Virus record (IMG/VR): IMGVR_UViG_3300043331_001777
Location: 1-20,323 of that record
Length of the DNA: 20,323 nt
Strand: one strand, 5' to 3'
Source of the DNA: a virus
Below, in pieces: positions 3,007-20,323 of the stretch. Position 1 is the first letter of the stretch. Every line of letters begins with the position of its first letter. The notes below the pieces were generated by a model. The model saw only the letters and a program-made list of their open reading frames with translations, was not told the DNA's origin and did no database searches. The position numbers and the translations under genes were made by a program.

Positions 3007-3023
3007 CACAGCGGCTGGTCAGC

Positions 3024-3035: not shown

Positions 3036-3052
3036 ACAGGACAGGAGTGCGT

Positions 3053-3457: not shown

Positions 3458-3789
3458 GGCGGACGAAAGCCGAATTGCTGCACAGTCTCTCTGCGCAAGA
3501 GCTGTTAGAGTGGGAGGTCTTTTTCGCCCTGGAAGGGGGCTGGCCCGCAGAGTGGGCCGACTGGCGGGCGGGGACCATCACGGCCATGATTGCCAACCTG
3601 GGCGCCGGGCTGGGCGGGAGTCGCAAGACCTGGCAACCGCAGGACTTTTATCGCCCGCACGAGCCGCCAGGCGGCGTAGGAGCCGCAGTGACGCCAGAAA
3701 GCCCGCAGCCGACCGAAGAGGATTTGACCATTATGAACCGCCTGGTGGCCAACCTGCAACGCCGGAACGGGCCAGCACACCCGGAGTAG
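3053..3789 (+). CDS. Tail assembly chaperone GT fusion made by -1 frameshift
   Basis: Ribosomes that slip back one base at A_AAA_AAC (3400-3406) leave the G frame after residue 118. They continue in the -1 frame from CGA 3406 to TAG 3787-3789, giving about 245 residues. The -1 frame carries a typical T-domain directly after the slip: F-R-L-A-L-S-L-G-R-T-K-A-E-L-L, then L-S-A-Q-E-L-L-E-W-E-V-F-F-A-L-E. This is the signature of lambda gpT/DUF4035-like proteins. It continues upstream of the first in-frame start-like codon of that frame, which confirms the fusion. In lambda the G to GT ratio sets proper tail assembly. Three bases separate its stop from the tape measure ATG. Confidence 0.85.
3400..3406 (+). 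promoter_or_regulatory. -1 programmed frameshift slippery heptamer A_AAA_AAC
   Basis: In the G frame the codons read GCA AAA AAC, so the heptamer A AAA AAC sits in exactly the X_XXY_YYZ register required for simultaneous -1 slippage. It is followed by a coding-like T-domain in the -1 frame. Confidence 0.88.
3423..3445 (+). promoter_or_regulatory. Possible frameshift-stimulating stem-loop
   Basis: CGAGCGG (3423-3429) pairs with CCG (3438-3440) and CTCG (3442-3445), with A3441 bulged and an eight-base loop. It starts 16 bases after the slippery site, somewhat further than usual. A second, mutually exclusive stem pairs CGCCCT (3444-3449) with AGGGCG (3456-3461) across the G stop codon. Either could pause ribosomes; neither is proven. 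Confidence 0.4.
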
Positions 3790-3792
3790 CCT

Positions 3793-6700: not shown

Positions 6701-7857
6701 GGAGTTTTGACCCGGTGGAGACGCGGATCCAGGACTTGGAAGAGGCGCTTACCCTGGCGGGGCGGCGCGGGTTTGCCGCCTGGGAGCCCGCCATCGCGAC
6801 GGCGCGAGAGGAACTGGAAAAACTGCGCCTGGAGCAACTCGCCTTTGAAGTGTCCCGCCAGATTCCCAAGGGTACCGCGACCGACTTTGCCGTACGGGCC
6901 AAGGATCTGCGCCAACAACTGATCCCGGAAGAACAGTTACGGGCGACCGTGGCTGAGATCGAGGCCATGCGGGACAGCATTGCCTTGCTCGGGGAGAACA
7001 TGAGTCAGCAATTTGCGCCGACCTTTGCCCAGGCCCTGCAAAATGCACAGATCGAGTTTGCGAAAACCACGCTCGTGGGCCAGAGTCTCATGCTCGTGGC
7101 CGAGGGCATCGGCACCGCCTTTAGCCAATCCTTTGAAGGCGTCATTCAGGGCACCAAGAGCGTCTCGGATGCGTTTAAAGACATGGTACAAAGCATCCTC
7201 CTGAGTATTGCACAGCTCCTCATTCAGCGCGGCATTCAGGACGTGTTGAATCTGGCCCTGGCGGCTTTGCCGGGCGGTGGGGGCGCGCCGGTGGCAGACA
7301 TTGCCTCTGCGATTGGCGGCGCGATTGCCGGGCAGCGCGCCTTTCAGGAAGGCGGCATCGTCCGTGAGCGACAGATTGCCCAGGTTGGCGAAGTGCCTGA
7401 AGCCATCATTCCCCTCAAAGGCGGCGCTATCCCCACCGGACGCGATGTCATGGGCCGCCTCGTCGCGCTCACGCCACGCGGCGAGGAGGTGCCGATTGCC
7501 ATGAAGCACGTGTTAGGCCCGGGAAGCCGCCGCGACCATCCCCTTCCAGTGGTGCAACCGCGTTCCCTCAAGGCCGGCGGCATTGTGTCGCGCCCGCTCG
7601 TGGCGCAAGTGGGCGATGCCGGCGCCGGGAATCCCGAAGTCGTCGCACCCCTGCGGGAACTGGGAAACATGCTCCGGCACAAGGACAAGCCTGTACAAGT
7701 CTACAACCTCATTGTGCCCGACAAAGACGAAGCCGAGCGCCGGGCCGAACAACTGCGGCAGCTGGAGAATACCGTGGTGAATATCGTCGTCGCCAACGCC
7801 AGCGAGGGCCGAGGCAGCCGCATCAAGCAGGCCCTGGGTTTGGGCCGAGGAGCCTAG
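3793..7857 (+). CDS. Tail tape measure protein
   Basis: This 1354-residue protein runs inside the growing tail tube and sets its length. By the usual relation of about 0.15 nm per residue the tail would be near 200 nm. Residues about 59-180 are Gln/Ala-rich with three diverged 50-residue repeats. Residues about 237-396 match the tape-measure N-terminal domain, with S-L-T-R-S-F-N, T-G-A-T-M-G-L-S and M-E-E-L-R-Q-Q-L-G-E-H-L-P-G. A long coiled-coil region follows, with a 66-residue repeat from residue 766. Near residue 1135 lies a hydrophobic stretch. The end has two related G-G-I-V ... A-Q-V-G blocks at 1187 and 1262, as in many tape measures. ATG 3793 follows GGAG (3783-3786). The chaperone genes immediately upstream confirm the role. 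Confidence 0.93.
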   Translation: MPISVGDLFARLTLDSRGLRTGADAAVREFKRVETAAQQMQEQTTVVPRQPRIAAGGGAFAQLGQQVSREAQTAAQQIQQAGQQVQQAVQHAQQGIQAQRGPQAFGQSAFARLGQQAQRDAQIAATQIRHAGQQINQAVQQAQRAGSGAQLGAFGQGAFARLGQQAQVAAQQIQQAGRSSQSVFSQLMQLMTQTARAGIQAFGGLDLSLTTFIDRMSSLQGVLASLGAIKAFTFILGTGTQIDSLTRSFNAFSGSARAGAENLGFVRDLANRIGIEFVPAAESFKNLAAAARGTVLAGRPVQEIFANIATTGATMGLSTQRMTLALSALSQMLSRGTVSMEELRQQLGEHLPGAFQSAARAMGVSTSELQKMIEQGEVMATDFLPRFARQVAQDLGASTEAASARAAASFARLTNAIVDLGNALASGGVLSGLAAVIETLLKVNSAFDAAIARIARFKSLLVTPGQERGAQQQLQGLIPPGISLSPAQETEALRVIQRYESLRQKLEQLQKAPTLPFLPSPVGRVGRELEEAQREMDALRTTFLQMGEEANQQVQPFQRQAESVRTVQQELAAVQKASEGIRSVMNGLNKDLAQVAANAELSGKAFDLPKERSQEIAKAFTDISKIMSANKITLGDLPKDMQAQIRALQGQLEVKTPRARRDTSFDAEDVGKADALARAFGQAGLQFDATQFKLQKLSETLRNKLVREGLDIAHPAVQALIAEIRTLQAASTGLQGLGQALVGLKAFDQVPDMGPFARDVQTMANQAALLGESFDLPAAKLQEFQKIVQQTASTSLQVTAEQAAATQQALSQLRVEDILENLARAEAEIQRQAALLGPTFDALTPKIQAMSQAVQQASRSQLDIVHPRIAALAPQAQEAQMEQVLQTIERQMDRITTQAALLGNTFDATGERVQVLGAALNTVAEQQLTGFQKEVTGIQQRFEAMSLQGLTDSLARGQQEIAQLAVLLGRSFDPVETRIQDLEEALTLAGRRGFAAWEPAIATAREELEKLRLEQLAFEVSRQIPKGTATDFAVRAKDLRQQLIPEEQLRATVAEIEAMRDSIALLGENMSQQFAPTFAQALQNAQIEFAKTTLVGQSLMLVAEGIGTAFSQSFEGVIQGTKSVSDAFKDMVQSILLSIAQLLIQRGIQDVLNLALAALPGGGGAPVADIASAIGGAIAGQRAFQEGGIVRERQIAQVGEVPEAIIPLKGGAIPTGRDVMGRLVALTPRGEEVPIAMKHVLGPGSRRDHPLPVVQPRSLKAGGIVSRPLVAQVGDAGAGNPEVVAPLRELGNMLRHKDKPVQVYNLIVPDKDEAERRAEQLRQLENTVVNIVVANASEGRGSRIKQALGLGRGA
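3967..4320 (+). repeat. Tandem ~150-base coding repeats in the tape measure N-terminus
   Basis: Three units begin at 3967, 4117 and 4264 (residues 59, 109 and 158). Each opens with A-F-A-(Q/R)-L-G-Q-Q, followed by a Gln/Ala run such as A-A-Q-Q-I-Q-Q-A-G. The third unit is shorter. The spacing is 50 and then 49 residues. Confidence 0.7.
6088..6879 (+). repeat. Four 198-base (66-residue) coding repeats in the tape measure
   Basis: Units begin at 6088, 6286, 6484 and 6682 (residues 766, 832, 898, 964), spaced exactly 66 residues apart. Each starts with a version of Q-A-A-L-L-G-x-x-F-D, followed by a helix like K-I-Q-x-L-x-x-A-V. Two more diverged copies of the F-D core lie upstream at residues 606-607 and 687-688. 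Sixty-six is six times eleven, as expected for hendecad coiled coils. Confidence 0.8.
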
Positions 7858-7860
7858 CCG

Positions 7861-8433
7861 ATGCCGACCTTTCCCCTCAGTCCAGCGCCGCGCTCGACCA
7901 CCCTGGCCGGGGTGCAGCATCCGCAGATTGTGCACCGGGTCGATGACGGCTATGAACTGCGGCGCAGTCGCTACACGCGCGGCACGCGGCGCTATCGGCT
8001 GGAATATATCGTCACGACGGCCGACTTTCATGTGCTCCAGGACTTTGTGTACCGTGAGACGGCCAACGGCGTGTTGAGTGTGGAATGGACCTTCCCCTAT
8101 CCACACCGCATCGTCAGCATTACGGCCGCCACGCCCAACGTCGTCACGACCGTGGCCACGCATGGCTACCAGACGGGCGACATGGTCGAGATCTCCAGTA
8201 CGCCCACGCAGAACGGCACGCATACGATTACCAGAATCGGCGCCACCACATGCAGCCTGGACGGCAGCGCCGGGGGCACCCCGGCCACGGAGGGCTTTGT
8301 GGCCTTATACTTTCCCGTCATGCTGATTCGGTTGCCGGACGGCGAATTTCCCATGCCGGAGAAACTGAAAGCGGGCATCTCTGACACGTATGGCTGGCAC
8401 CGATTCAGCTTGGACCTGGAAGAGGGATACTAA
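7861..8433 (+). CDS. M-like distal/minor tail protein with an inserted FCCH-like domain
   Basis: This 190-residue protein starts at ATG 7861, three bases after the tape measure stop. GAGGAG of the ribosome site lies within the tape measure end. Residues 25-78 read H-R-V-D-D-G-Y-E-L-R-R, then R-Y-R-L-E-Y-I and V-E-W-T-F-P. This resembles the Phage_min_tail family (lambda gpM, PF05939), which sits at the distal end of the tube and connects it to the tip. Residues about 82-150 are an insert with H101-G102, D107 and V109-E110-I111, similar to the module in the tube protein. The C-terminal part resumes with L-I-R-L-P-D-G and ends in F-S-L-D-L-E-E. Stop and next start overlap as TAATG. Confidence 0.75.
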   Translation: MPTFPLSPAPRSTTLAGVQHPQIVHRVDDGYELRRSRYTRGTRRYRLEYIVTTADFHVLQDFVYRETANGVLSVEWTFPYPHRIVSITAATPNVVTTVATHGYQTGDMVEISSTPTQNGTHTITRIGATTCSLDGSAGGTPATEGFVALYFPVMLIRLPDGEFPMPEKLKAGISDTYGWHRFSLDLEEGY

Positions 8434-8936
8434 TGCCACGCACTTTCACGGCCGCACAGATTGCCAACAAGAACAGCCTGGAAGCCCGCACGCCCTGGGT
8501 AGACCTCCTGGAACTGGAGATTACCGGGGCACCGACCGCCTTGCGGTTTGTCAACAACGTCGATCCCCTGACCTTTCACGGCAACACGTTCGAGCGGGCG
8601 GGCTTCCGCGTGCCGTGGCTCCCGGAGAACTCGCAGGACCGCTTGCAGCGCGTGCAGGCCGAGGTGCAAAACGTGACGCGCGAAGTGCAGGCGCTGCTTG
8701 AACAATACTGGGCGGCCGGGCTGGCGGCCTGGACCGTGCGCCTGTGGAAAGTGCTGTGGAGTGCACCGGATGATACGCCGCTCGACAGCGCCGAAGTCTA
8801 CGAGGTGCTCGGTGCCAAGACGAACCTGGGGCCGGCGGTGCAATTTGATATGCGGCCCGCCGGTATTACGGGCGGGCGCGTGGTGCCTGGACGCGGCTAT
8901 ACCGCCACCGGGGGCTTTCCCAACATTCCCCGATAA
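8433..8936 (+). CDS. L-like / DUF1833-like minor tail protein
   Basis: This 167-residue protein starts at ATG 8433, sharing one base with the preceding TAA. It has an N-terminal strand region (V-D-L-L-E-L-E-I) and then D-P-L-T-F-H-G-N-T-F-E, the typical layout of DUF1833 and lambda gpL-like tail-tip proteins. The middle contains a regular helix (RLQRVQAEVQNVTREVQALL) and then V-R-L-W-K-V-L-W. The end is Gly-rich. gpL-like proteins link the distal tube ring to the baseplate hub; some bind an iron-sulfur cluster, but no Cys cluster is visible here. Its order before the NlpC/P60 gene matches lambda L-K. Assignment to DUF1833 versus gpL is uncertain; the tail-tip role is likely. Confidence 0.7.
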   Translation: MPRTFTAAQIANKNSLEARTPWVDLLELEITGAPTALRFVNNVDPLTFHGNTFERAGFRVPWLPENSQDRLQRVQAEVQNVTREVQALLEQYWAAGLAAWTVRLWKVLWSAPDDTPLDSAEVYEVLGAKTNLGPAVQFDMRPAGITGGRVVPGRGYTATGGFPNIPR

Positions 8937-8945
8937 GGAGTCTCT

Positions 8946-9086
8946 ATGCTGACCGTCACCATGATCCTGTCCGTGGCCGCTTTGTTGCTGGCCATCGCCA
9001 ACGCCATCAACCGCTGTCCGCTCTGGGTGCCCGTGGTCCTGCTGACCATCCTGCATCTGATCCAGAGTGCAGTGCCGATCCGGTGA
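8946..9086 (+). CDS. 46-residue membrane protein in the tail-tip operon
   Basis: A short frame runs from ATG 8946 to TGA 9084-9086. AAGGAG (8935-8940) is placed five bases before the start, the best ribosome site in this area. Its stop overlaps the GTG start of the NlpC/P60 gene (GTGA, 9083-9086), the same coupling used throughout this operon. The peptide has two hydrophobic stretches, residues about 2-20 and 27-42, separated by N-A-I-N-R-C-P. This predicts a hairpin of two membrane segments. Function is unknown. Small size and topology would suit a holin-like, pinholin-like or superinfection-exclusion protein, but its place among tip genes could also mean a tip-assembly factor. Confidence 0.7.
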   Translation: MLTVTMILSVAALLLAIANAINRCPLWVPVVLLTILHLIQSAVPIR

Positions 9087-9490
9087 GCAACCTGACGCGC
9101 CTGCCGTCGATACGGCAACTGTTGCTGGACGCCGAAGCCACCAACGCGCAGATTATCGGGGCGCCGTATACCCAGTGGAACTGCTGGCATCTCGTGCGCT
9201 ATTTGCTCCAGGCGGGCCTGGGGATCAACCTGGACGCTGACCCGCGCCACAACATGGATCTGGTCGCTGAGTATTGGTGGCATGAAGACACCGCCGACCC
9301 GCTCACGTGTACGCAACCCTGGGATCTCTGGGTCTTTCGCCTGCGGGGCGTGGCGGCCGAACACCTGGGCGTGGTCATGGATAGTGTCCATATGGTGCAT
9401 ACGAACGAAACTCATGGGGTCACAATAGAGACACTCAAACGATGGCGACCACATTTGCTCCTCATCTACCGCCTACGGCAGCTCCTGTAG
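9083..9490 (+). CDS. NlpC/P60-family tail-tip peptidoglycan hydrolase
   Basis: This 135-residue protein starts at GTG 9083. The probable catalytic Cys is C34 in W-N-C-W-H-L-V, at the start of a helix, corresponding to the D-C-x-x-L-V motif of NlpC/P60 cysteine peptidases. The catalytic His is H94 in E-H-L-G-V-V, matching H-V-G-I-Y of the family. A later M-V-H-T (H106) resembles the third conserved position. In lambda-like phages the matching protein (gpK C-terminal domain) helps assemble the tip or cuts cell-wall peptides during DNA entry. The usual Asp before the Cys is Asn here. The gene overlaps the next one by 49 bases. The domain call is good; activity is inferred. Confidence 0.78.
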   Translation: MSNLTRLPSIRQLLLDAEATNAQIIGAPYTQWNCWHLVRYLLQAGLGINLDADPRHNMDLVAEYWWHEDTADPLTCTQPWDLWVFRLRGVAAEHLGVVMDSVHMVHTNETHGVTIETLKRWRPHLLLIYRLRQLL

Positions 9491-12400
9491 CCACCGCAGA
9501 GCTGGTCATCCTCCTGACGCCGCTCAAAGGGCGCGACGGGCAGTGGCGTGTGCTGCGTCAGGCGGTGCATGCCGGGCAGACCGTCCGGGCGGTGTTGCCC
9601 CCTGGTCAGCCCTGGCAGCACGTCGATATCAGTGGGCGCCGGATTGCGCCCGAGGCGTGGGACACCGCCATCATTGCGCCGGGCGATGAGATCTGGCTGA
9701 CGCCCGAATGGGGCGTCCAGGCGGTGCCATTCCTGATTACCCTGGCGGTGGGCATTGCGTTGTCCGTCGCCACCGCCTTTCTGTTTGCGCCGAAGCCCCC
9801 CAAAGGCGCCGGACAAGACGACCCGACCTACACCATTACGGGGATTCGTAGTACGCGAGGTCCCGGGCAGCCGGTGCCGATCTGCTATGGCCGCCACCGC
9901 AAAGGGGGGCAAATTCTCTCCGCGTTTGTGACGTATCCCGACACCTATATTGACGATGGCTCAACCGCTTCGACGGCCAAGCCGATTGAAAGCTTTGTCG
10001 GGGGCGGGGGGGGCGATATGCCCGAGCAGGTCGTGGTGTTTGTTGACAATCATGGGTTCCCCGCCGGACAACAGATCCGCATCCGCAATGTCAAAGGGGC
10101 GCCCTGGTTGAATAATCTCTGGACCGTGGTTGCGCCCGTCGATACGCATTTCTTTGCCCTGGGCGGCGCCGATGGGTTGCAGACCGCAGGGGCCACCGGC
10201 GGCGAGGTGCTCACCGAAGGACCGATTCGGGAGCAGGCCACCGAGAAATCGGCGCGCTGGAATATGCTGTGGGGCCTGGCGGAAGGGCGTATTGCCGAAG
10301 TGCATCAAGAAACCATCCGCCTGAATGAGCAGCCCGCGCATAACTTCAAGAATTTGCTCATTGACACGCGGCCCGGGCTGGCCACGCAGAGCGTCATGGA
10401 AGGCTTTAACGATACACGCCTCACCGTGCCAGACGGCCGTGAGATTGTGAGTGGGGGCATTATCTATACCACCAGTCAGCCCGTCGATGCCTTTGGCCTC
10501 AACATCGACTTTAACGAGGGCCTGGTGCATTTCCTGGAGAGTGGCTCCCAGGTCAGTAACAAAGTGGTCATTGAGTATCGGTTCCGCGTCAGTCCCTCGG
10601 GAGCCTGGACGGGGATTCGCCAAATTGAGATTGTGGGGGAACGGGCGGGGCCGGTGCGGTTTGGGATTCGGCGCCGCAATATCGCCACGGAAACCTACGA
10701 CATCGAGGTGAGCCTGCTCAGTGTGGGCAATACCAGTAGCACGCGCAGTCGCTGGCGTCCGACCCTGACCAGCATCACGGAGATTGTCAACGGAACAGAA
10801 CGCTACGACAACACGGCGCTCCTGGGCATTCGGGGCATTGCCAGCGAGGGCATTCAGGGCGATTTCCCGAACATGACCGTCGAAGTACGCGGGCTCCTGG
10901 TGCGCGTCGGCAGTTTTGCGGCCACAGAGACCTATTCCACCAATCCGGCGTGGTGCCTGCTGGATCTGATGACCAATCCCCGTTACGGGCTCAAGCTGCC
11001 GGATAGCGCCATGGATCTGCCCGCCTTCCAGACCTTTGCCGATTACTGTGACGAAGAAGTCGAGGGCCTGCCCCGCCACACGCTCAACTATATTCTGGAC
11101 CGCTACGTCAGCGACCAGGACGCCATTTTGGAGCTCTTGCAGGGCACCCGGGCCGAGATGATTCACAGCGAGGGCAAGTGGGGACCGCGCCCGAGCCGCG
11201 ATGACCCGCCAGTGCAACTCCTCACGGCCGCCAGTTGCTGGAATGTCGAGATTGACTACGTGCGGGATGTCGATGCCGTCAACGTGGTCGAGGTGAAATA
11301 CGCCAACGCTGACAACGACTATCAGCAAGACGTGCTCACCTGGCCCCCCGAAGCCAACTGGCCCGCCCAGGTCCACAAAGAGACCATCGAGGTGCGCGGC
11401 ATTACGGAGAGTGCCGAGATTCAGCGCTATGCGCAGTACGAGCTGAATCGCCGCAGTATCCCGCGTCGCACACTGACCATGGAATGTGGGCTGGAAGCGC
11501 TGCGCCTGATTACGCACGAGATTTTCCGCTTTGCGCATCCGCTGCCGGGCTGGGGCATCTCCGGGCGTATTGCCAACGACCCGGACAATTCGACACTCCA
11601 ACTCACGTTGGATAAAGCCGTGCTCTTTGAGGACGGCAAAACCTATCATCTCTACGTGCGGCAGGCGGATGATACGACCGAAGTCCGCCCGGTGACACAT
11701 CCCGGCGCCGGGGAGTACCGCACTATTACCCTCAGTACCGCCCTGACGCAGATCCCCGAAGCCCGCCTCAGCGAGTGGAGCTTTGGCGAATCGGCGCCCA
11801 CGGACACGGCGCAAATTCGCTTCCGAGTCAAAGAGATGCGGCGCACAGCAGAGATGTCGGTGCTCATTGAAGCCATTGAACATAATCCCAGTGTTTACGA
11901 GGATGACGCGGCGATTGTCCTCCCGCCCATCACCGACCTGCCCGACGTGTTTGGCCCCTCCCCGCCACTGCTGAACCTCGTAGCGACCGAGCTGCAACGC
12001 ATCGACATTGGCGGGCGGGTGCGGCCGGTGGTGCAACTCTCCTGGGACATTATGGACCCACTGGCGGGCTTTGGCTTCTACGGCGGCGCCATTATCTATC
12101 GGCGAGAGATCATCGGCGCCAGTATGCTCGGGCATGTCCTGGCCGCGGAGGTCGAGGCGGCCGTGATACAGCCCGACACGGATACGGTCGATCTGGCAGA
12201 CTTTTTCCGCGTCGGCGATGTCGGGCTGGGCATCCTGGACTTTGTGCACCAGAACGTGGTACCCGGCATTGCGTACCAATATCGCGTGGTCCCGATCAAT
12301 ACGCGAGGGCTCCCCAATTTCTCGGGCTTTGATGAAGCGCTCATTCACGTCACCGGGGGCACCACCCCGGAGTTTCGCCCCGGCACGCCGACCCACCTGC

Positions 12401-13953
12401 GCCTGCTCAATGCCGACAGCGATGAGGTGATCATTGGCGGCTATGCCGAGGGCTACGCGGAGGATTACGCCGAAGAGGCGCAGAGTGTGCTGACCGCGGC
12501 GCATCAGTGGCATGGCCCCGACCTGCTCTTTACCTGGGATGCGCCCCCCCCGCCCGAGGCCGGCGGCAGTGTTACCGTGAGCTACCGCATTGACCTGTAT
12601 GCCCCAGGCCAGGCGTATCGGATTGCCGGCCCGATCTTTGTTCCGGCACCGGGCTATGCCTACACGCAGGCGGCGAATAGTGAGGACCATAGCCAGTGGG
12701 GGATGCCCCCGGCACGACAGATTCTCATTCGGGTGTGGGCCCGCAGCGATGCCGGCATGGAGTCCGTGGCGCCGGCCGCACTGCTCGTGGACAATCCGCC
12801 CCCCGATATGTCGGGCGTGATTCCCCTCGTGACCAATCTGGTTGATGGGCTGTTCGTCTCCTGGGAACACTGGGAGGCCCCCAGGGACATCGAGAAATTT
12901 GGCGTCTACGTCAACGGCCTGCTGCGGCAGACTGTCGGCGCGCATACGCAGAGCGTGGTGATTACGGGCCTGACCGGGGGCACGGGCGCCAGCGTGCACA
13001 TTCTGCCCTACGATACGTTTGGCCCAGGGATTCCCACCCCGAGCCAGGGCGGCGCTCCGGAGAGCGCCACCAGCCAATGGCCCTACCTGGCGCGCAGTGT
13101 GGCAGCCAATAATCTGGTGTTTTCGACAGATGAGGTGACCAATACCGTCAACTGGACGGGCGGGACACTGACGTATGTCACCCCGAGCGGCGCCACCGAA
13201 CAGCGCACCGTCAGCGCGGACAGCGCGCAGTGGACTGGGCAAACGCTGTATATCCAGTATCCCCTGGGCAGTACCGTGTTTGAGGCCAGCACCACCCTGA
13301 ACACGGGCAGTGAGCGTGTCCTGATGGCCGTGTACAGTGGCGGCCATGACCTCGTGGTCGAGGTCGGCACGGCCACGGTCCATGGCGACAATATTGTGCC
13401 CCAGAGCATCACAGCGGCCAATCTGACGCAGAGTAGCGCGGTGATTACCACCGCCACGCAACTGGACACCCAGGTCGTGAGCAGTGCGGCCATTCAGGAT
13501 GCGGCCGTAACTGGCCCAAAAATTGGCGAGTTTGCGGTGGATACCAACAACGTCGCCAGCAATGCCATTACCGCCATGGATGTGGCCAGTACGACCAGCC
13601 CGATTGTGTTGACCACCGGGGTAGAAACGGTGGTGCAGACGCTGGCCAATTTTGTGACGGAAGGCGGGCGGGTGCAGCTGACCTTTTTTGCCGGCCTGGC
13701 CAGTGGGAGTGCGTTTGATCTGAGTAGCGGCATCCGCATCCGCAAAGACACGGCGGCCGGGGAGATTCTGCGAGGCACGCAAGTCATTTTGGAGAACCAA
13801 ACCGCTGAAACACGCCTGGCGATTGCCCTGGGCGCTGAGGATGAGTTCCCCGCACTATTGCAAACGTACGTGGTGACCGCGACGAATAATATCGCAGGCG
13901 ATCTGGCCACGATGGACGATCGCCACTTGACAGCGCTGAACTGGAAGAAATAG
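9442..13953 (+). CDS. Tail tip attachment (host specificity) protein, J-like with fused I-like N-terminus
   Basis: This 1503-residue protein starts at ATG 9442 within the end of the NlpC/P60 gene; no better start is seen before residue 35. Residues about 20-93 look like a beta-grasp domain ending in P-G-D-E-I-W-L-T-P. Residues 94-117 are one hydrophobic segment. Together they resemble lambda gpI joined to J. The core then reads G-P-G-Q-P-V-P-I-C-Y-G (a tip-protein hallmark), and N501 begins N-P-A-W-C-L-L-D-L with N-P-R-Y-G-L after it, as in gpJ/TipJ proteins. Residues about 840-1205 hold three fibronectin-III-like regions, interrupted near residue 1000 by three Y-A-E repeats. The last ~300 residues are beta-rich and probably reach the receptor. 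It is longer than lambda gpJ (1132). Confidence 0.88.
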   Translation: MATTFAPHLPPTAAPVATAELVILLTPLKGRDGQWRVLRQAVHAGQTVRAVLPPGQPWQHVDISGRRIAPEAWDTAIIAPGDEIWLTPEWGVQAVPFLITLAVGIALSVATAFLFAPKPPKGAGQDDPTYTITGIRSTRGPGQPVPICYGRHRKGGQILSAFVTYPDTYIDDGSTASTAKPIESFVGGGGGDMPEQVVVFVDNHGFPAGQQIRIRNVKGAPWLNNLWTVVAPVDTHFFALGGADGLQTAGATGGEVLTEGPIREQATEKSARWNMLWGLAEGRIAEVHQETIRLNEQPAHNFKNLLIDTRPGLATQSVMEGFNDTRLTVPDGREIVSGGIIYTTSQPVDAFGLNIDFNEGLVHFLESGSQVSNKVVIEYRFRVSPSGAWTGIRQIEIVGERAGPVRFGIRRRNIATETYDIEVSLLSVGNTSSTRSRWRPTLTSITEIVNGTERYDNTALLGIRGIASEGIQGDFPNMTVEVRGLLVRVGSFAATETYSTNPAWCLLDLMTNPRYGLKLPDSAMDLPAFQTFADYCDEEVEGLPRHTLNYILDRYVSDQDAILELLQGTRAEMIHSEGKWGPRPSRDDPPVQLLTAASCWNVEIDYVRDVDAVNVVEVKYANADNDYQQDVLTWPPEANWPAQVHKETIEVRGITESAEIQRYAQYELNRRSIPRRTLTMECGLEALRLITHEIFRFAHPLPGWGISGRIANDPDNSTLQLTLDKAVLFEDGKTYHLYVRQADDTTEVRPVTHPGAGEYRTITLSTALTQIPEARLSEWSFGESAPTDTAQIRFRVKEMRRTAEMSVLIEAIEHNPSVYEDDAAIVLPPITDLPDVFGPSPPLLNLVATELQRIDIGGRVRPVVQLSWDIMDPLAGFGFYGGAIIYRREIIGASMLGHVLAAEVEAAVIQPDTDTVDLADFFRVGDVGLGILDFVHQNVVPGIAYQYRVVPINTRGLPNFSGFDEALIHVTGGTTPEFRPGTPTHLRLLNADSDEVIIGGYAEGYAEDYAEEAQSVLTAAHQWHGPDLLFTWDAPPPPEAGGSVTVSYRIDLYAPGQAYRIAGPIFVPAPGYAYTQAANSEDHSQWGMPPARQILIRVWARSDAGMESVAPAALLVDNPPPDMSGVIPLVTNLVDGLFVSWEHWEAPRDIEKFGVYVNGLLRQTVGAHTQSVVITGLTGGTGASVHILPYDTFGPGIPTPSQGGAPESATSQWPYLARSVAANNLVFSTDEVTNTVNWTGGTLTYVTPSGATEQRTVSADSAQWTGQTLYIQYPLGSTVFEASTTLNTGSERVLMAVYSGGHDLVVEVGTATVHGDNIVPQSITAANLTQSSAVITTATQLDTQVVSSAAIQDAAVTGPKIGEFAVDTNNVASNAITAMDVASTTSPIVLTTGVETVVQTLANFVTEGGRVQLTFFAGLASGSAFDLSSGIRIRKDTAAGEILRGTQVILENQTAETRLAIALGAEDEFPALLQTYVVTATNNIAGDLATMDDRHLTALNWKK

Positions 13954-13955
13954 CC

Positions 13956-14387
13956 ATGTTATACGCGGTGCTCTATGAGAAAAGTACCGGCGCGTTGCTC
14001 AGTCGGCGCCGCTCCAGTAGTCTCACGGATGTGACCCTGCTCGAAACAGAGACGGTGGGCGCGGTGGAAGTCCCAGGCGGGCATCCGATTTTCCAGGTGG
14101 GAGAGGCGCCCTATCGGCTCGTCGAGGACCGCATTGAGCCCAAAGTGGTACTCGTATTCAGTGCCACGCCCAGTCCATTCGAGGCGGATGGGGTGGCAGA
14201 GTGCACCATCCGCCTGACGCCCGCGCCGGTGGCGCCCCTCCTGGTCCAGGTGGGAGACGAGACGCTCGAAGTGACCCCGGAAGACCCCGACATCCTGCTC
14301 ACAGCCGACACGCCGCAGGTGATTCCGATCAGCCTCGTCCTGGACCTGGTGTATTGGGCTGCACCGATCACCGCGGAGGCGGTGTAA
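13956..14387 (+). CDS. Small tail-associated protein of unknown function (143 aa)
   Basis: I do not recognise a family. The protein starts at ATG 13956, two bases after the tip gene stop, and is almost entirely beta in character. The N-terminal ~60 residues are one unit (MLYAVLYEKSTGALLS then E-T-V-G-A-V-E-V-P). A second part from about residue 66 (V-V-L-V-F-S-A-T-P-S-P-F-E-A-D-G then C-T-I-R-L) resembles an Ig-like sandwich, perhaps holding the fibre or tip. Its place after J suits a fibre-attachment or tip accessory protein. This is an inference from position and strand pattern. Confidence 0.7.
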   Translation: MLYAVLYEKSTGALLSRRRSSSLTDVTLLETETVGAVEVPGGHPIFQVGEAPYRLVEDRIEPKVVLVFSATPSPFEADGVAECTIRLTPAPVAPLLVQVGDETLEVTPEDPDILLTADTPQVIPISLVLDLVYWAAPITAEAV

Positions 14388-14389
14388 CC

Positions 14390-14647
14390 ATGCCACGCCT
14401 GGACAAACAGAGTAGCGAACGCGTCGTCATCACGCGGGCCACGGAACGCCTGGGGCCAGAGGCCCTCACGCTTGCCGTGATTGACTACGTGCAGCAATTG
14501 CGGCAGGTGGTGGGCCAACAGCTCAATATCCTGCGGCAGCAGGCGGGGCTGCCCCCCCTGGAGGCGGACGTGCTCCCACGTCTAGACCGACAACGCCTGA
14601 TGCAGATATTGCGCCAGAAACTGCGCGACCAGCGCGGGGAGGACTAG
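14390..14647 (+). CDS. Small helical protein of unknown function (85 aa)
   Basis: ATG 14390 lies two bases after the previous stop. The same frame is open back to 14201, but that part is antagonised by the real upstream gene. The peptide is charged and helical: residues about 21-50 (A-L-T-L-A-V-I-D-Y-V-Q-Q-L-R-Q-V-V and on) could form a coiled coil. The C-terminal third is basic (R-L-M-Q-I-L-R-Q-K-L-R-D-Q-R). One base separates it from the next gene. It may be a short fibre-assembly helper or coiled-coil adaptor; there is no firm evidence for either. Confidence 0.7.
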   Translation: MPRLDKQSSERVVITRATERLGPEALTLAVIDYVQQLRQVVGQQLNILRQQAGLPPLEADVLPRLDRQRLMQILRQKLRDQRGED

Positions 14648-14648
14648 T

Positions 14649-15236
14649 ATGGCACAACTGGGCGCAGGGAGTGGGACCGACTATCCCAGCGCAATAGATA
14701 CCGTGGCGAGCTACGTCAACGGCGCCAATCCGCTGCCTGACAGCAATGCTCGCGTCGATGCCGAGCTCCTGAACGATCTACTCCTGGCGATTGAAGCACT
14801 CCAGATTACCCTGGGCGCCAATCCCCAGGGAAGCTTTGCCAGCGTGCGGGCGCGGCTCGATGGGCTGGCCCCTCCGACGACCACGCCAGGCGGCGCGGAG
14901 ACCACCGTGGCGGCGAACACGGGCGCCACCACGCTGACCTCCTCGGCCCTCATTCCCGCCAATGCCCGGATTGAAGCGGTGTTTATCGAGGTTGATACGA
15001 GTTTTGGCACCAGCAATGGCCTGACGGCCATCCATGTCGGCGGGCTCGGCCTCCTGGACCGCTGGGGCAGCACCATTGCGCTGACGGCGGGCACCAGGAC
15101 CGGCTTTCAGGATTTTACGACGAACGAGATGCCCACGACGACGGCCCCCACGGCGGTGACCATTACGGCCGCGAGCGGGACATTTGACAGTGTGGGGTCA
15201 CTGACCGTCACGGCAGAATTTAAACTGGCCCCCTAG
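14649..15236 (+). CDS. Tail fibre-like protein with helical neck and beta knob
   Basis: This 195-residue protein starts at ATG 14649. Residues about 8-72 are helical: D-Y-P-S-A-I-D-T-V, then A-R-V-D-A-E-L-L-N-D-L-L-L-A-I-E-A-L, ending with G-S-F-A-S-V-R-A-R-L-D-G. This type of N-terminal region occurs in environmental phage fibre proteins. From about residue 84 it is all beta (T-T-L-T-S-S-A-L-I-P-A-N-A-R-I, then L-D-R-W-G-S-T-I-A-L-T-A-G-T) and resembles a jelly-roll receptor-binding knob. It lies between the tip genes and the tailspike-like gene, as fibres do. Family is unnamed; a host-contact role is inferred from fold pattern and place. Confidence 0.65.
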   Translation: MAQLGAGSGTDYPSAIDTVASYVNGANPLPDSNARVDAELLNDLLLAIEALQITLGANPQGSFASVRARLDGLAPPTTTPGGAETTVAANTGATTLTSSALIPANARIEAVFIEVDTSFGTSNGLTAIHVGGLGLLDRWGSTIALTAGTRTGFQDFTTNEMPTTTAPTAVTITAASGTFDSVGSLTVTAEFKLAP

Positions 15237-15248
15237 AGAGGAACCGCT

Positions 15249-17279
15249 ATGCGCAAAACAATACTCTGGTGTCTACTCCTCTGCCTCGGGGCCGGTGTCG
15301 GCTCAGTCAGTCCGCAGCTCAACGCCACGCGGTATGAGAGCGCGAGCGGCTGCCATGCGCCAATTGGCTTCCCTGGACAGGCCAGCCTGAGTGCTGCCGT
15401 CAATGAACTGACATTCCCCAGTTGCCTCCGCATCGGCAGGCCGCTCGCAGCAGGGGTACTCGCCACGAGCGCCGGCGACTGGACCGTGACCAGCAACCTC
15501 ACGGTGCCGGCCAATATCCGGCTCAAGCTCGAACCTGGCCCGCTCCTCACGCCCAGTACGGGCGTCACGCTGACCCTGGGCAGTTGCCCCGATGCCGGCC
15601 CCTATCGCATTTTTGCCGGGGCGGGCACGGTGACGTTTTCCCCAGGTGCGTGCCATTTTGTCTACCCGGAATGGTGGTATGACGGTGGGGGCAACTGGCT
15701 GAGCGCCCTCAATAAAGCCCTGGAAGCCGTCGCTGCAAGTAAGGGCACGATGCTGCTCGGGGCCAAAACCTACCCGTATACCGGAGAACTCCTCTACCCC
15801 GCTGGCGTGAATATCCAGGGCGTCTCGTTCCGGGATACGATTCTGCAACCCAGTACCGGCGTGGGCCTGACGCCGACGGACCCCAACGCTATCTACGAGC
15901 GGAATACGTTCAAAGATTTTGCGATTGTCTGTAGCGACAGCAGCGCCCCCTATACGTGCACCGTGGGTCTGCGCCTGGCGTCTGCGCGGCGCAATCACCT
16001 GGAAAACCTCTTTGTGCAGTTCATGGCGCAGGATGGCATCCTCTTCTCGACGGGCACGGGGCTCAACCCGTTCTACAATACGCTGACCAATATCTGGGTC
16101 CGCAACGTCGAAACGGGGAACTGCTACCGCCAGGTCGCCACCGGGGGCGAGCAGCCCAATGCCACGCGCATCATTGGCGGCCACTACGGCGCCTGTGCCA
16201 CCGCCCTGATGATTACGGACGGCTCCACCGGCAGTGTGGTCGGGAGCGCCCTGGAAGGCGTCACGGCGGACTTTATGAGCATCGGCGGGAATGCCTGGAT
16301 GATGAACGCGACTAGAATGGAAAACAACACGTACCTCGGCCCAGATCATGGCATTGTCTTCACCGGCACCAGCGTCGACGGGTTTACCATGAGCAACACC
16401 ACACTGGTCGGCGGCTCAGTGGTGACGACGCTCCTGGACGATATGTCCTATTGCCTCACCAATAATCGCATCAACGGGGAGGTGGTGCCCGACGAATGCC
16501 CCATGAAAGATATGGCCGGACCCCTGTCGCAGGTCGGCAATCCCTGGGCGTGCTGGGGGCAGGAAGAGAATCTGGCGACCGCGACGGAGGCGCTGGGAGC
16601 CAGCGACTGGGTCACGATCTCAGGCAGTCTGAGCGTCAGCTCCAATACGGTGGTGGACCCGCTGGGCACCAGCCTGGCCGACCGCATTACGTTTACGGGC
16701 AGTACGAATATCCGAGCACTGCTGACCACGACCACGGCAAGCGGACGCCTCGTCTATTACGGGGCCTGGCTGAAGTCCCCCACGTTCGGCCGCATCCAGT
16801 GGGAACTCCTCGCCACCGGGGGCGGCGGAACGGAGCCGGTCGCACGCGGACAATGGAACCTCACGCCGAACTGGCAGTATCACTATATCACGCATCAATT
16901 CTGCACCACGGGCACTGGGGGATGCAACATTGCCGCAGGCGACACCATCCGGCTCGGCTTTCGGAACACCGATGTGGACAGCATGGTCGACCTTCTTGAC
17001 GTGTTTGGCGTGCAGCTCGGGCTGGGGGCACACCCGCGCTGCTATGTCACGGTGGGCAATGCGGCGCCGACCGTGGCGGCGCGGAATAAAACGACGATCC
17101 GCACCAAAATAGACGCCTCGGCGCAGTCCCTGCGCATTACGTCCGCCACCACCTGTGATGATAGCCTGTTTGATGTCGATGATAACGCCACACTGTGCCT
17201 GGATAATGACGCCAATGGGGGGAGCGGGGCGCTGTGCGTGCGCGTGAGTGGCCTGTGGAAATGCGTCAATCTCAACTAG
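15249..17279 (+). CDS. Exported beta-helix tailspike-like protein with C-terminal carbohydrate-binding-like domain
   Basis: This 676-residue protein starts at ATG 15249 behind AGAGAGGA (15234-15241). Residues 1-22 look like a Sec signal peptide: M-R-K, a Leu-rich core, then G-A-G-V-G-S-V-S. After a beta region, Y-P-E-W-W near residue 139 and N-W-L-S-A-L-N-K-A-L-E-A-V mark the entry to a pectate-lyase-like parallel beta-helix, residues about 150-420 (N-T-L-T-N-I-W-V, G-G-H-Y-G rungs). Such spikes cut or bind surface polysaccharide. Residues about 440-600 resemble a jelly-roll carbohydrate-binding module (W-L-K-S-P, L-T-P-N-W-Q-Y). The mature part has 18 Cys, fitting a disulfide-bonded extracellular protein. 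Catalytic residues cannot be picked by eye. Its stop overlaps the stop of the convergent - strand gene. Confidence 0.75.
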   Translation: MRKTILWCLLLCLGAGVGSVSPQLNATRYESASGCHAPIGFPGQASLSAAVNELTFPSCLRIGRPLAAGVLATSAGDWTVTSNLTVPANIRLKLEPGPLLTPSTGVTLTLGSCPDAGPYRIFAGAGTVTFSPGACHFVYPEWWYDGGGNWLSALNKALEAVAASKGTMLLGAKTYPYTGELLYPAGVNIQGVSFRDTILQPSTGVGLTPTDPNAIYERNTFKDFAIVCSDSSAPYTCTVGLRLASARRNHLENLFVQFMAQDGILFSTGTGLNPFYNTLTNIWVRNVETGNCYRQVATGGEQPNATRIIGGHYGACATALMITDGSTGSVVGSALEGVTADFMSIGGNAWMMNATRMENNTYLGPDHGIVFTGTSVDGFTMSNTTLVGGSVVTTLLDDMSYCLTNNRINGEVVPDECPMKDMAGPLSQVGNPWACWGQEENLATATEALGASDWVTISGSLSVSSNTVVDPLGTSLADRITFTGSTNIRALLTTTTASGRLVYYGAWLKSPTFGRIQWELLATGGGGTEPVARGQWNLTPNWQYHYITHQFCTTGTGGCNIAAGDTIRLGFRNTDVDSMVDLLDVFGVQLGLGAHPRCYVTVGNAAPTVAARNKTTIRTKIDASAQSLRITSATTCDDSLFDVDDNATLCLDNDANGGSGALCVRVSGLWKCVNLN

Positions 17280-17788
17280 TCGGCGGGCACGGACGGCGGG
17301 ACGCCTTGCAGCTGGACCATCAGGGCCTTGACCCGTTCCAGGTACGCCTGTGCCGGGGCGGAATAGGTGACAAGCATTGGGCCATCACTCCGGGGCGGGG
17401 GCGGGCCGAATCGCCACGCCACGATCAGATCATCCTGGCTATAGACCTGCGGCAGGAGCCACTCAATCTGCCGGAGCCCCACTTCGAGATTCCAGGCCGG
17501 ATGACAAAGCAGGGTCAAATACGGCACCTCACAGCCCCGCTGCCGCGCCACGGTGCCTGGAATCTGGAGCAACCCCCAGCGGGTGCGCTGCTGCATGCGT
17601 TCCGTGTTGACGGGAATGCCGAGGCGCTCAGCCCACTGCACGGGCTGCACCAGGGGGCTGCGCTGTGACTCGTAGTGCACCATCTCGGACACGCCCGCAC
17701 TTTCGGTCTCAATCAGCGCGGCGACCAGGACCGCATCAATCCGGCGGGCAGTACAGATCCAGGCAATATAGGGGAGCCAACTCTGCAT
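17276..17788 (-). CDS. SLT-type lytic transglycosylase / endolysin-like enzyme
   Basis: This 170-residue protein starts at the complement of 17788, behind AAGGAGG. A longer frame upstream has no comparable start signal. The lysozyme-like SLT fold is seen as A-A-L-I-E-T-E-S-A-G (catalytic Glu probably E29), W-G-L-L-Q-I (71-76), N-L-E-V-G-L-R (100-106) and I-V-A-W-R-F-G-P (122-129). Lytic transglycosylases cut the MurNAc-GlcNAc bond of peptidoglycan. There is no signal peptide, so export would need a holin or virion packaging. Its ATG shares one base with the upstream stop (TAATG). On the opposite strand to the tail genes and last in a cassette, it is more likely a lysis enzyme than a tail component. 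C86 and C95 are extra. Confidence 0.78.
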   Translation of the reverse strand: MQSWLPYIAWICTARRIDAVLVAALIETESAGVSEMVHYESQRSPLVQPVQWAERLGIPVNTERMQQRTRWGLLQIPGTVARQRGCEVPYLTLLCHPAWNLEVGLRQIEWLLPQVYSQDDLIVAWRFGPPPPRSDGPMLVTYSAPAQAYLERVKALMVQLQGVPPSVPAD

Positions 17789-18006
17789 TAATCCTCCTTG
17801 CGGGGGCGTAATTCTCTCGCCAGCACTTCTACTGCCTGCTGCACCCGACACGCCAGCAGATGGAGCCCGTGGGCATGGAGCAGCGGGAGGCACTTTTCCA
17901 GTTCATACACGGCGGCGCGCATCTGCGGCGTGACCGGCAACGGCGTCGGTTCAGGACGGGAGCGCCGTCGGGGCCGATACCGTGCCGCGCGGGTCATGAC
18001 CGGCAC
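17788..18006 (-). CDS. Small helical protein of unknown function (72 aa)
   Basis: I do not recognise this protein. Its stop TAA overlaps the ATG of the transglycosylase gene, which supports a real, coupled gene. It starts at GTG 18006 or ATG 17997; neither has a clear ribosome site, so reinitiation after the upstream stop at 18010-18012 is likely. The first 25 residues are strongly basic and Pro-rich (R-Y-R-P-R-R-R-S-R-P). The rest forms amphipathic helices (R-A-A-V-Y-E-L-E-K-C-L-P-L-L). The basic arm could contact nucleic acid. No holin-like hydrophobic segment is seen. Confidence 0.65.
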   Translation of the reverse strand: MPVMTRAARYRPRRRSRPEPTPLPVTPQMRAAVYELEKCLPLLHAHGLHLLACRVQQAVEVLARELRPRKED

Positions 18007-18009
18007 GCC

Positions 18010-18342
18010 CTACGCCAGCCCGGAGACCAGGAGACTCGGCGGACGCAGACACAGCGCCCGGGGGGACCGACACCAGTCGCACAGCCCGGTCTGCTGCTCT
18101 GTGCGACTCTGCAACAGCGCGCCATCACGGGAACAGCGGGGCCGGGGATCCTGGGCGATCCGAGGCCACGGCGGGGCCGGCAGCCGATCTTTGGCGTCCT
18201 GGAGCACCAGGAGCGCCGCAGCGCCGGACAGGCCATGGTCGCGTACTAAATGCTGCTGCATCCGGGGCCGGGCGACCCGCAACAGATGACAGCAGGAATA
18301 ATAAATGCGGGTGCGGTGGCGCTGGGCGGTGAGGTCAATCAT
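18010..18342 (-). CDS. Cysteine-containing protein of unknown function (110 aa)
   Basis: ATG at 18342 overlaps the end of the DUF1064-like gene by eight bases; a GTG at 18348 is an alternative start. The protein is basic and has C17, C18, C70 and a cluster C88-x2-C91-x6-C98 near the C-terminus. The cluster resembles a zinc knuckle or ribbon half-site. Residues about 20-52 look helical (HLLRVARPRMQQHLV and A-A-A-L-L-V-L-Q-D-A). It belongs to a chain of four overlapping genes ending in the lytic enzyme. A DNA-binding or regulatory role is possible; no family is recognised. Confidence 0.6.
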   Translation of the reverse strand: MIDLTAQRHRTRIYYSCCHLLRVARPRMQQHLVRDHGLSGAAALLVLQDAKDRLPAPPWPRIAQDPRPRCSRDGALLQSRTEQQTGLCDWCRSPRALCLRPPSLLVSGLA

Positions 18343-18763
18343 GGGCACGCGCTCCCCGATCCAGGGTGATGGTCCACCCCCGCGATTCCCACTCCTGCTG
18401 ATACAGGGCCAGGAACACCCGCCACCGAAATTTTGCGGGGGCGGGGAAATAGCCCTTCACCTCGATCAACTCGCGGGTGGCATCTGTATGGATAATAACA
18501 AAATCCGCGCGGTATGTCCCCACCTGCTGCCCATTGACCACCAGAGGAAAATCCACCTGCCGCGCCCAGCTGGTAATCTCGCCCGCCTGGACCCGGGCAT
18601 CGAGGGTAAACGCCAGCCGTGCCTCACGGGCGGAATGGTACAGGATGCCATTGTACCGGCGCTGCTCCGGTAGGCTGACATGATATTTGTTGCCCGATTC
18701 GCCCTGCTGCATCAAGGCCCGGTAGGCCGCCGCAGTCATGCGGGTGGATAGTTCACGCGCCAT
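18335..18763 (-). CDS. DUF1064-like PD-(D/E)xK nuclease
   Basis: The best start is ATG 18763, with AAGAGG about nine bases upstream; an open frame continues to 18814 without a good start. The 142 residues contain Y38-N-G-I-L-Y-H-S-A-R-E48-A, a long helix, V-D-F-P-L-V-V, then A-D87-F-V-I and L-I-E101-V-K103-G. These match the DUF1064 family (PF06356), a small phage nuclease family with the PD-(D/E)xK metal-binding core D ... ExK. E48 is a possible extra metal or fold residue. Such enzymes are thought to act on replication or recombination intermediates or on packaging. All core residues are present, so activity is plausible. The last eight bases overlap the next gene. Confidence 0.75.
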   Translation of the reverse strand: MARELSTRMTAAAYRALMQQGESGNKYHVSLPEQRRYNGILYHSAREARLAFTLDARVQAGEITSWARQVDFPLVVNGQQVGTYRADFVIIHTDATRELIEVKGYFPAPAKFRWRVFLALYQQEWESRGWTITLDRGARAHD

Positions 18764-18783
18764 CAGGTGCACCCTCTTGCCAT

Positions 18784-18882
18784 TCAACAGCGCGCCCGTA
18801 CTGCTGCTGGGCATCCTGCTCTTTCAGCCAGCGCGGGGCATGCTGTGGTGGAATACGGCGTCAATCGCATGATTTTTGCCAT
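18784..18882 (-). CDS. Very small gene, possibly frameshifted (32 codons)
   Basis: A strong AGGAGG lies seven bases before ATG 18882. That frame gives only 32 residues, beginning M-A-K-I-M-R-L and ending at TGA 18786-18784. The +1 frame from about 18860 down to TGA 18755-18753 looks more protein-like (R-R-I-P-P-Q-H-A-P-R-W-L-K-E-Q-D). It would overlap the DUF1064-like start by 11 bases, the normal pattern here. Skipping one base near 18861 would join them into a 42-residue basic protein. Function is unknown. A real +1 shift, a sequence error, or an unrelated leader peptide are all possible. Confidence 0.4.
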   Translation of the reverse strand: MAKIMRLTPYSTTACPALAERAGCPAAVRARC

Positions 18883-18960
18883 TAAAAGTCCTCCTTCTGG
18901 GGAACAGGGGGCATTGGAACCATGGCTCCATGACACATACGGGCCTCCGGTGCCTGGCGG

Positions 18961-18991
18961 GGGGCGAGAGAAGGCCGGACCCTCTCGCCCC
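18961..18991 (-). other. GC-rich 10-bp hairpin downstream of the nuclease gene
   Basis: GGGGCGAGAG (18961-18970) pairs perfectly with CTCTCGCCCC (18982-18991) around 11 bases that can add a GG/CC pair. It lies 45 bases beyond the stop of the secreted nuclease gene on the - strand. No T-run follows on either strand, so it is not a classic intrinsic terminator. It may stabilise the mRNA end, stall polymerase or separate expression of the two gene groups. The rest of this gap (18883-18960) holds only the small gene's ribosome site and a near-palindrome around CCATGG. Confidence 0.6.
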
Positions 18992-18993
18992 GA

Positions 18994-19015
18994 GGATGTG
19001 CCGTAAACCACATCC
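18994..19015 (-). other. Second hairpin between nuclease gene and small gene
   Basis: GGATGTG (18994-19000) pairs with CACATCC (19009-19015) around an eight-base loop. It is two bases from the 10-bp hairpin, so the two stems could stack in the transcript. Confidence 0.55.
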
Positions 19016-19035
19016 CCATGGACCGCGCAGGGGTG

Positions 19036-19494
19036 TTAATCGCACCAGGACTGGCGCCCAGTCCCATACGGCCGCGCATAGCCCGCCGCCAGCATCGCGT
19101 CAGACAGGGACACGGGCGGCTCCCCAATCGTCACATCTGCAATCACGCGGCCATACATATCCGGCACCAGGGTCTGCACCACCACGGGGGTCTGCTCCAG
19201 CAATCGTGCGAGGGCCGCAGTGGCCGCGATGGCCCACTCGCGTTCTGCGGGACAGCGGGCCTGCCGTTCTGCGGTATCGTACCCCCGAGGCCGAATGCGC
19301 GCGAGCACGGTGGTAGTCATATTGAACCAGAGGGGGATACTGATCGTGCCTTCAAAGGTATCCCCGTCAATGACCCGCGTGACCGCCACAGGATAGGGAC
19401 CGTCCATCTGAGGCAGCGCACTGGCGTGAGCACTGGACAACGCCAGACTGGCACAGACACTGATGAACACGAGGCGGGACACTCTGGGACGCAT
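19036..19494 (-). CDS. Secreted staphylococcal-nuclease-type (thermonuclease) enzyme
   Basis: This 152-residue protein starts at ATG 19494. Residues 1-27 are a Sec signal peptide (basic M-R-P-R-V-S-R, hydrophobic core, then S-S-A-H-A-S-A). The mature part is an SNase domain: V-I-D-G-D-T (D45, equivalent to D21 of the S. aureus enzyme), R68, Y-D73-T-A-E76 (D40, T41, E43) and Y-G-R116 (R87). All catalytic positions are present. These Ca-dependent enzymes cut DNA and RNA. The C-terminal L-A-A-G-Y-A-R-P-Y segment is family-typical. C81 and C151 could form a disulfide. It follows a second exported protein by 15 bases, with AGCAGG as a weak ribosome site. It may act in the periplasm or outside the cell on host or competing DNA. 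Confidence 0.85.
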   Translation of the reverse strand: MRPRVSRLVFISVCASLALSSAHASALPQMDGPYPVAVTRVIDGDTFEGTISIPLWFNMTTTVLARIRPRGYDTAERQARCPAEREWAIAATAALARLLEQTPVVVQTLVPDMYGRVIADVTIGEPPVSLSDAMLAAGYARPYGTGRQSWCD

Positions 19495-19509
19495 ACGGGC
19501 GCCTGCTCG

Positions 19510-19941
19510 TTACGGCCGCGCATCGAGCAGGCCCGCCTGCACCGTACAACCCGCAATATCGCCCCGCAGGCGCGTCGGCAGCAGCGCCGAGACCCCGGGG
19601 GCCGTCACCGTAAACCGCAAGTCCAGCAAGCGCCGCGCATGGGGGGTGCCGAACGCCTCGCTCCGCAGCACCGCACAGGTCAGGCGATCACGCCCATAGT
19701 TGATCGCTTCCCGGACGCACGTGCCTTGCGCATCCTGCGGCACGCGGGGCGTCAAGCTATTCCCCTGGAACAACACATCCAACTGCGCATCGTCAAAGGA
19801 GGCGGGCAGGCCAAACATGAGAATAGGAATCGACACCAGCGCCCCCACCGGGGCCACGGTATCGGGGATATGGACCGTACAGGCGGCGGAGGCAGCGGCC
19901 ACCGTCCACACACTCAGGAGGAAACCGAGGATTGTCCGCAT
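19510..19941 (-). CDS. Secreted cohesin-like protein with four cysteines
   Basis: This 143-residue protein starts at ATG 19941 with AAGGG upstream. Residues 1-19 are a Sec signal peptide ending in A-A-A-S-A; C21 is not in a good lipobox. The mature part has alternating strands: P-V-G-A-L-V-S-I-P-I, D-D-A-Q-L-D-V-L-F, R-L-L-D-L-R-F-T-V-T-A. This resembles a cohesin-like or carbohydrate-binding-like jelly-roll. C21, C75, C89 and C132 could make two disulfides. It overlaps the upstream gene by 28 bases and precedes the secreted nuclease by 15, so the two are probably co-expressed and may act together. The fold call is tentative; other beta-sandwich families are possible. Confidence 0.65.
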   Translation of the reverse strand: MRTILGFLLSVWTVAAASAACTVHIPDTVAPVGALVSIPILMFGLPASFDDAQLDVLFQGNSLTPRVPQDAQGTCVREAINYGRDRLTCAVLRSEAFGTPHARRLLDLRFTVTAPGVSALLPTRLRGDIAGCTVQAGLLDARP

Positions 19942-20222
19942 ACTTCGTGCCCTTCAGAGAGAGGTGATCCTTTCAATACGCTCGCCTTATACGCGCAGAA
20001 TGCGCCAAAAATGGCATCGACCAGGCCCCCGGGCAAGTGCTGCACCAGGGCGCCCACGAGAATCGCGGCTTCCGCAGTATAGGACGCCTGGGCCAGCGCG
20101 AGCGCCTGGCGAGACGCGCGGGGGGTATCAGGGACCATGATCCGTTGCGTGGCCACATCCGTATCAAACATCAGGGTCAGTGGCGTGCCGGGACTGGCAT
20201 GGTAGGAATGTAAGACGCGCAT
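19914..20222 (-). CDS. Protein of unknown function (102 aa)
   Basis: ATG at 20222 shares one base with the stop of the upstream partial gene (TGATG), so translation is likely coupled. The N-terminus is beta-like (M-R-V-L-H-S-Y-H-A-S-P-G). The middle is a long helical stretch (R-Q-A-L-A-L-A-Q-A-S-Y-T-A-E-A-A-I-L-V-G-A-L-V) and a mildly hydrophobic G-G-L-V-D-A-I-F-G-A-F follows. I do not recognise it. It lies ahead of two secreted proteins. Membrane association is possible but weakly supported. Confidence 0.6.
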   Translation of the reverse strand: MRVLHSYHASPGTPLTLMFDTDVATQRIMVPDTPRASRQALALAQASYTAEAAILVGALVQHLPGGLVDAIFGAFCAYKASVLKGSPLSEGHEVCGQSSVSS

Positions 20223-20323
20223 CAGGCCTGTCCTCCCTGCACCACCGGGGCGGCCTGTGCCTCAAGCAAATCTCCCAGGTTTTGGGCAAAGCCCCACCGC
20301 TGCTGGTCTGTCGTCTCGGCATC
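20222..20323 (-). CDS. C-terminal end of a gene entering from the right edge (partial)
   Basis: The - strand frame is open from the window edge to TGA 20224-20222, giving 33 residues with W-G-F-A-Q-N-L-G-D-L-L-E-A near the middle. Its stop overlaps the next ATG by one base. It shows the - strand operon continues to the right. Nothing can be said of function. Confidence 0.55.
   Translation of the reverse strand, partial: DAETTDQQRWGFAQNLGDLLEAQAAPVVQGGQA

Follow-up and report, generated by a model that had tools for sequence, protein, structure and literature searches.

A predicted-exported, catalytically complete SNase in a phage gene cluster and the orphan protein encoded beside it

Nucleases exported by phages have been little studied beyond a few pathogen prophages, and the use that a phage might make of such an enzyme outside the cytoplasm is a question raised by two small genes near one end of a virus-collection fragment of 20,323 bases from an uncultured bacterial virus (hereafter the window, meaning the whole stretch of DNA that was analysed; the record ends at 20323). 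One gene, P0001, encodes a nuclease of the SNase (thermonuclease) family, and the other, P0002, a protein that the first-pass annotation took to be a possible binding partner of the nuclease. The locus thus poses two questions: whether the genes specify one exported system, and what the nuclease would do.

The rightward genes of the window (about 100-17279) are those of the head-tail connector and tail module of a long-tailed phage, comprising connector, major tail protein, tail chaperone, a 1354-aa tape measure protein, an NlpC/P60 gene, a 1503-aa J-type tail tip protein and fibre genes. The last of this module (15249-17279, +) encodes a 676-aa protein that is tail-spike-like by eye and carries a clear Sec signal peptide (MRKTILWCLLLCLGAGVGSVS), an odd feature for a protein of that appearance. 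A single phage sharing this tail module was recovered (L307/L387; J 2e-157, tape measure 7e-46, major tail protein 2e-55); read to its end, it carries neither the SNase nor P0002. L387 also encodes three small proteins with apparent signal peptides (9414-9953 and 9979-10455, +; 13688-14053, -), two of them adjacent and none related to P0002. The best matches to the J protein were distant ones from Rhizobium phages, and the nearest cellular relatives of P0001 are from Hyphomicrobiales; a host of Hyphomicrobiales type is a reasonable guess, and no more.

Leftward genes occupy 17276-20323. In order from the end of the record they are a gene cut by that end, P0003, P0002, the SNase gene, a DUF1064/Holliday-junction-resolvase-like gene, two small genes and an SLT-like (lytic-transglycosylase-like) gene, whose end meets that of the last tail gene (17276/17279; Table 1). 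The end of P0003, for which Pfam and PHROG searches returned no family, shares 28 bases with the start of P0002, which makes it likely that P0003, P0002 and the rest of the leftward run form one operon. The SLT-like gene, a candidate lysozyme, begins at an ATG at 17788 with an AGGAGG-type site upstream. Between it and the DUF1064 gene lies a 112-aa cysteine-rich ORF (18010-18348, -) with weak codon support (0.09) and CDWC-type pairs that appear zinc-finger-like by eye, and between the DUF1064 and SNase genes is a possible 32-codon ORF (18882-18784, -) preceded by a strong AAGGAGG site. No 3TM holin was found in the window, which is cut at 20323, and no clear helical membrane protein in its leftward cluster.

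Table 1. Features of the leftward cluster, with the evidence for each
Feature	Position	Strand	Evidence
SLT-like (lytic-transglycosylase-like) gene at the far end of the leftward cluster	17276..17788	-	Pfam SLT match that misses the cut-off, E 0.016 (score taken from the longer ORF 17276-17893)
DUF1064/Holliday-junction-resolvase-like nuclease	18335..18763	-	Pfam DUF1064 30.7 bits, PHROG 190 8.9e-14 (scores taken from the longer ORF 18335-18814)
P0001, predicted-exported SNase (thermonuclease family), 152 aa	19036..19494	-	Pfam, PHROG 452, alignment A4, PDB profile match (staphylococcal nuclease), AF2, Foldseek
Predicted Sec signal peptide of P0001, about residues 1-25	19420..19494	-	Hydropathy 2.63 over 12 aa, basic n-region, AHASA c-region
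P0002, predicted-exported orphan, 143 aa, four cysteines in mature part	19510..19941	-	Codon usage
Predicted Sec signal peptide of P0002, about residues 1-20	19882..19941	-	Hydropathy 2.18 over 12 aa, ASA|AC c-region
P0003, 102 aa	19914..20222	-	Sequence; codon usage weakly positive, 0.11

Both genes were found as ORFs on the same strand, separated, as the first-pass annotation had it, by exactly 15 bases (19495-19509). A codon-usage model trained on the window's tail genes showed P0001 and P0002 to be tail-gene-like in their own frames (0.23 and 0.37 bits per codon, respectively) and negative in all five others, with a 354-aa antisense ORF at -0.28, and on this basis both look like real genes. 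The Sec signal peptides that had been proposed for the two are consistent with hydropathy and cleavage motifs and, for P0001, also with SNase homologues, which likewise bear N-terminal signals. Sec n-, h- and c-regions are present in both (MRPRVSRLVFISVCASLALSSAHASA; MRTILGFLLSVWTVAAASA), the hydrophobic cores exceed those of nearly all other genes in the window, and the P0002 signal has no canonical lipobox. Both proteins are therefore predicted to be exported via Sec.

P0001 passes the Pfam cut-off for the SNase family (PF00565; 28.2 bits against 21), was matched in the genome search too, and corresponds to PHROG 452 'endonuclease' (1e-18). Residues D45, R68, D73, E76 and R116 align with the catalytic and Ca-binding residues D21, R35, D40, E43 and R87 of staphylococcal nuclease; the five positions are invariant among 11 relatives (alignment A4) and also align with thermonuclease 4r8n. 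An AlphaFold2 model of P0001, made from 11 relatives, reached a pLDDT of 88, and its best Foldseek matches were all SNases (E about 1e-5, TM about 0.5-0.6), as expected of the OB-type SNase fold. The earlier description of a complete SNase with every catalytic residue is upheld by the Pfam score, the five aligned positions and the confident fold. Judged from sequence and model, P0001 is an SNase with a complete active site, and the presence of a catalytically complete, predicted-exported SNase in a phage is supported. Pfam detected no extra domain in P0001, dockerins included, leaving a signal peptide and an SNase domain only.

The mature enzyme has two cysteines, C81 and C151, of which the latter is invariant in A4 and the former present in at least 90% of sequences, a conservation that fits an exported, oxidised protein. 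The same arrangement is absent from the cytoplasmic SNases of cyanophages, which share the SNase family and PHROG 452 with P0001 but lack both the signal peptide and the WC cysteines. P0001 belongs to an exported two-cysteine type ending in 'WC' that many phages share with the chromosomes of Hyphomicrobiales. The chromosomal SNases of Hyphomicrobiales (PF00565; L155-L184) are 36-46% identical to P0001 over the domain and have the same catalytic residues, the two cysteines, an RxxWC end and an N-terminal signal or membrane anchor; P0001 differs in being phage-borne, in its shorter N-terminal region and in a strand 2/3 loop longer by two residues. A tree of 84 SNases gave no supported placement for P0001.

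Profile scans of viral contigs and phage records gathered further WC-type SNases, and among the matches listed 17 were non-redundant. Fourteen of these 17 listed proteins were predicted to be exported by a crude signal-peptide rule, and eight are adjoined by a peptidoglycan-hydrolase-like gene of one of three enzyme kinds, forming apparent lysis modules; the counts describe these listed matches and are no measure of population frequency. A GH19/PG-binding-type gene adjoins the SNase gene in L005, L092, L106, L138, L139 and L140, and follows it 10-11 bases downstream in L005, L106, L138 and L139, which represent one phage group; in L095 the neighbour is a GH108 gene together with a 3TM holin, and in L121 it is an SLT-like gene. 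Because the GH19 cases stem from one phage group, the independent instances number about three, plus the window itself, whose SLT-like gene has the same orientation as P0001, starts about 1.25 kb downstream of it and scores below the Pfam cut-off. No lysis gene adjoins the SNase in the T4-like relatives (L015, L020, L058, L109 and L130), nor in L244, where the neighbouring gene encodes a D12-class DNA methylase and lysis genes are absent from the reachable surroundings. The exported WC-type phage SNases of MW202675.1, where a 'nuclease-like protein' is encoded next to 'chitinase A', and of the IMG/VR contigs L106, L138, L139, L095 and L121 are among the closest parallels to P0001; there the lysis gene usually follows within about 11 bases, whereas in the window at least three genes separate the two and the SNase gene is preceded by that of the orphan P0002. 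A search of mostly non-subscription literature found no paper joining an SNase or thermonuclease with a phage holin, endolysin or lysis module, which is not proof of novelty.

P0002 is, by every comparison made, an orphan with no detectable relative in the collections searched. It has no match in Pfam, PHROGs or NCBIfam, and no relative was found among phages (tblastn), plasmids, three phage records or 397 Hyphomicrobiales genomes, nor among viral contigs screened with two sets of exact octapeptides, by which only close relatives are detectable. Three Klebsiella phage matches (E 0.2-0.7) were rejected, as they lie opposite to annotated genes, and one Hyphomicrobiales match with a per-genome E of 0.002 is about what chance would yield across 397 genomes. 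The four cysteines that had been noted in P0002 are present (C21, C75, C89 and C132); the cohesin-like beta-sandwich ascribed to it was not confirmed. By eye, P0002 resembles cohesins (PF00963) in length, in its beta-rich pattern and in the order of strand motifs, but Pfam gave no cohesin match even at E up to 10, the profile score falls within the background tail, and there is no dockerin partner. Against a profile of 30 cohesins from five genomes plus CipA, with which scores varied according to alignment mode, the score of P0002 was reached by 21 of 500 shuffles (4.2%) and 16 of 500 unrelated proteins (3.2%), or p of about 0.03-0.04, which is only weakly suggestive of a cohesin-like protein. 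A single-sequence model (pLDDT 55) was unusable and provided no usable match bearing on the jelly-roll beta-sandwich fold of cohesins; the structural matches to MoaC, PheRS and RRM returned by Foldseek and VIA-align (Z up to 6.3) were judged meaningless.

Could P0002 nevertheless be a dedicated partner of the SNase, acting as inhibitor, anchor or targeting subunit through a cohesin-like fold within one exported system? The shared strand, the 15-base spacing, the predicted export of both proteins and the faint cohesin-like similarity speak for such an arrangement, but the SNase has no dockerin or other extra domain, P0002 is an orphan, the tail-module relative L307 has neither gene, and SNase relatives were without P0002 everywhere they were looked at. 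At more than 230 SNase loci no P0002-like ORF was found next to the nuclease gene, and among the matches listed a predicted-exported neighbour of any kind on the same strand accompanies only two of the 17 viral relatives. Rare co-occurrence of the homologues, one of the outcomes that the first-pass annotation had named as refuting the idea, is what is seen from the nuclease side, and a joint nuclease-partner system is not supported; we consider it improbable. That P0002 might be a fast-evolving, phage-specific exported partner is more doubtful still, although if this were true the phage would secrete a DNA-degrading device of two components for which no counterpart has been described. Most simply, P0002 would be an exported accessory protein with no connection to the SNase beyond a common operon. 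Of what the first-pass annotation proposed, the exported SNase is supported and recurs in other phages; the pairing is not supported.

The most likely role of the nuclease on its own is in lysis, given the complete SNase, the eight of 17 listed relatives beside peptidoglycan hydrolases and the same-strand SLT-like gene. We propose, with a probability of roughly 0.45, that P0001 is a Sec-exported, probably disulfide-bonded, calcium-type SNase used outside the cytoplasm, where it clears DNA around lysis. The enzyme would accumulate in the periplasm during infection, unable to touch phage DNA in the cytoplasm, export itself being what keeps the two apart; released at lysis, it would cut host and matrix DNA, thereby freeing progeny from viscous DNA and destroying free DNA. 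Against this reading stand the SLT-like match that falls short of the Pfam cut-off, the failure to find a holin in the 20-kb fragment, and the T4-like relatives and L244, whose SNase genes have no lysis neighbour. Moreover, the SNase and SLT-like genes are separated by the DUF1064 gene and a small gene rich in cysteine codons, so that the leftward cluster may not be a lysis module at all, but an early or accessory operon.

The main rival is that the phage carries the nuclease as an accessory (moron) factor, exported to destroy DNA on its way into the cell, whether in the periplasm or extracellularly, be it that of superinfecting phages or DNA taken up by natural transformation of an infected or lysogenic host. 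The prophage enzymes of Campylobacter jejuni (CJIE1 dns, CJE0256) are dns-type nucleases and not SNases. As phage-borne extracellular DNases they are comparable to P0001, and those tested in lysogens, CJIE1 dns and others, strongly cut natural transformation (PMC4004267). This precedent, a cluster that also holds the DUF1064 gene and genes without a family, as accessory operons do, and the L244 SNase with its methylase neighbour all favour the idea; the recurrent position of relatives beside peptidoglycan hydrolases points instead to lysis, and with no integrase, repressor or attachment site visible in the fragment lysogeny is unproven. We regard destruction of incoming DNA as somewhat less likely than a role in lysis. 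Considerably less probable is that the phage exports a set of matrix-degrading enzymes to open biofilm, the SNase acting on extracellular DNA and the 676-aa protein on polysaccharide. The third Sec signal peptide and good ribosome-binding site of the latter are in keeping with this, as is the finding that biofilm is both prevented and removed by extracellular DNases that C. jejuni RM1221 encodes (PMC4372405), but that is a cellular phenotype and not one of phage infection, and comparisons with protein families, the PDB and phages returned nothing for the 676-aa protein, which makes its enzymatic role a guess.

P0001, then, is a predicted-exported member of the well-known SNase family, of which other phages too export members, often encoded next to the genes that burst the cell. 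On present evidence the pairing of P0001 with P0002 adds nothing further, and the association between exported SNases and lysis genes suggests itself as the part worth following. That exported SNases recur next to peptidoglycan hydrolases of three kinds suggests that, in some phages, DNA clearance has been added to lysis.
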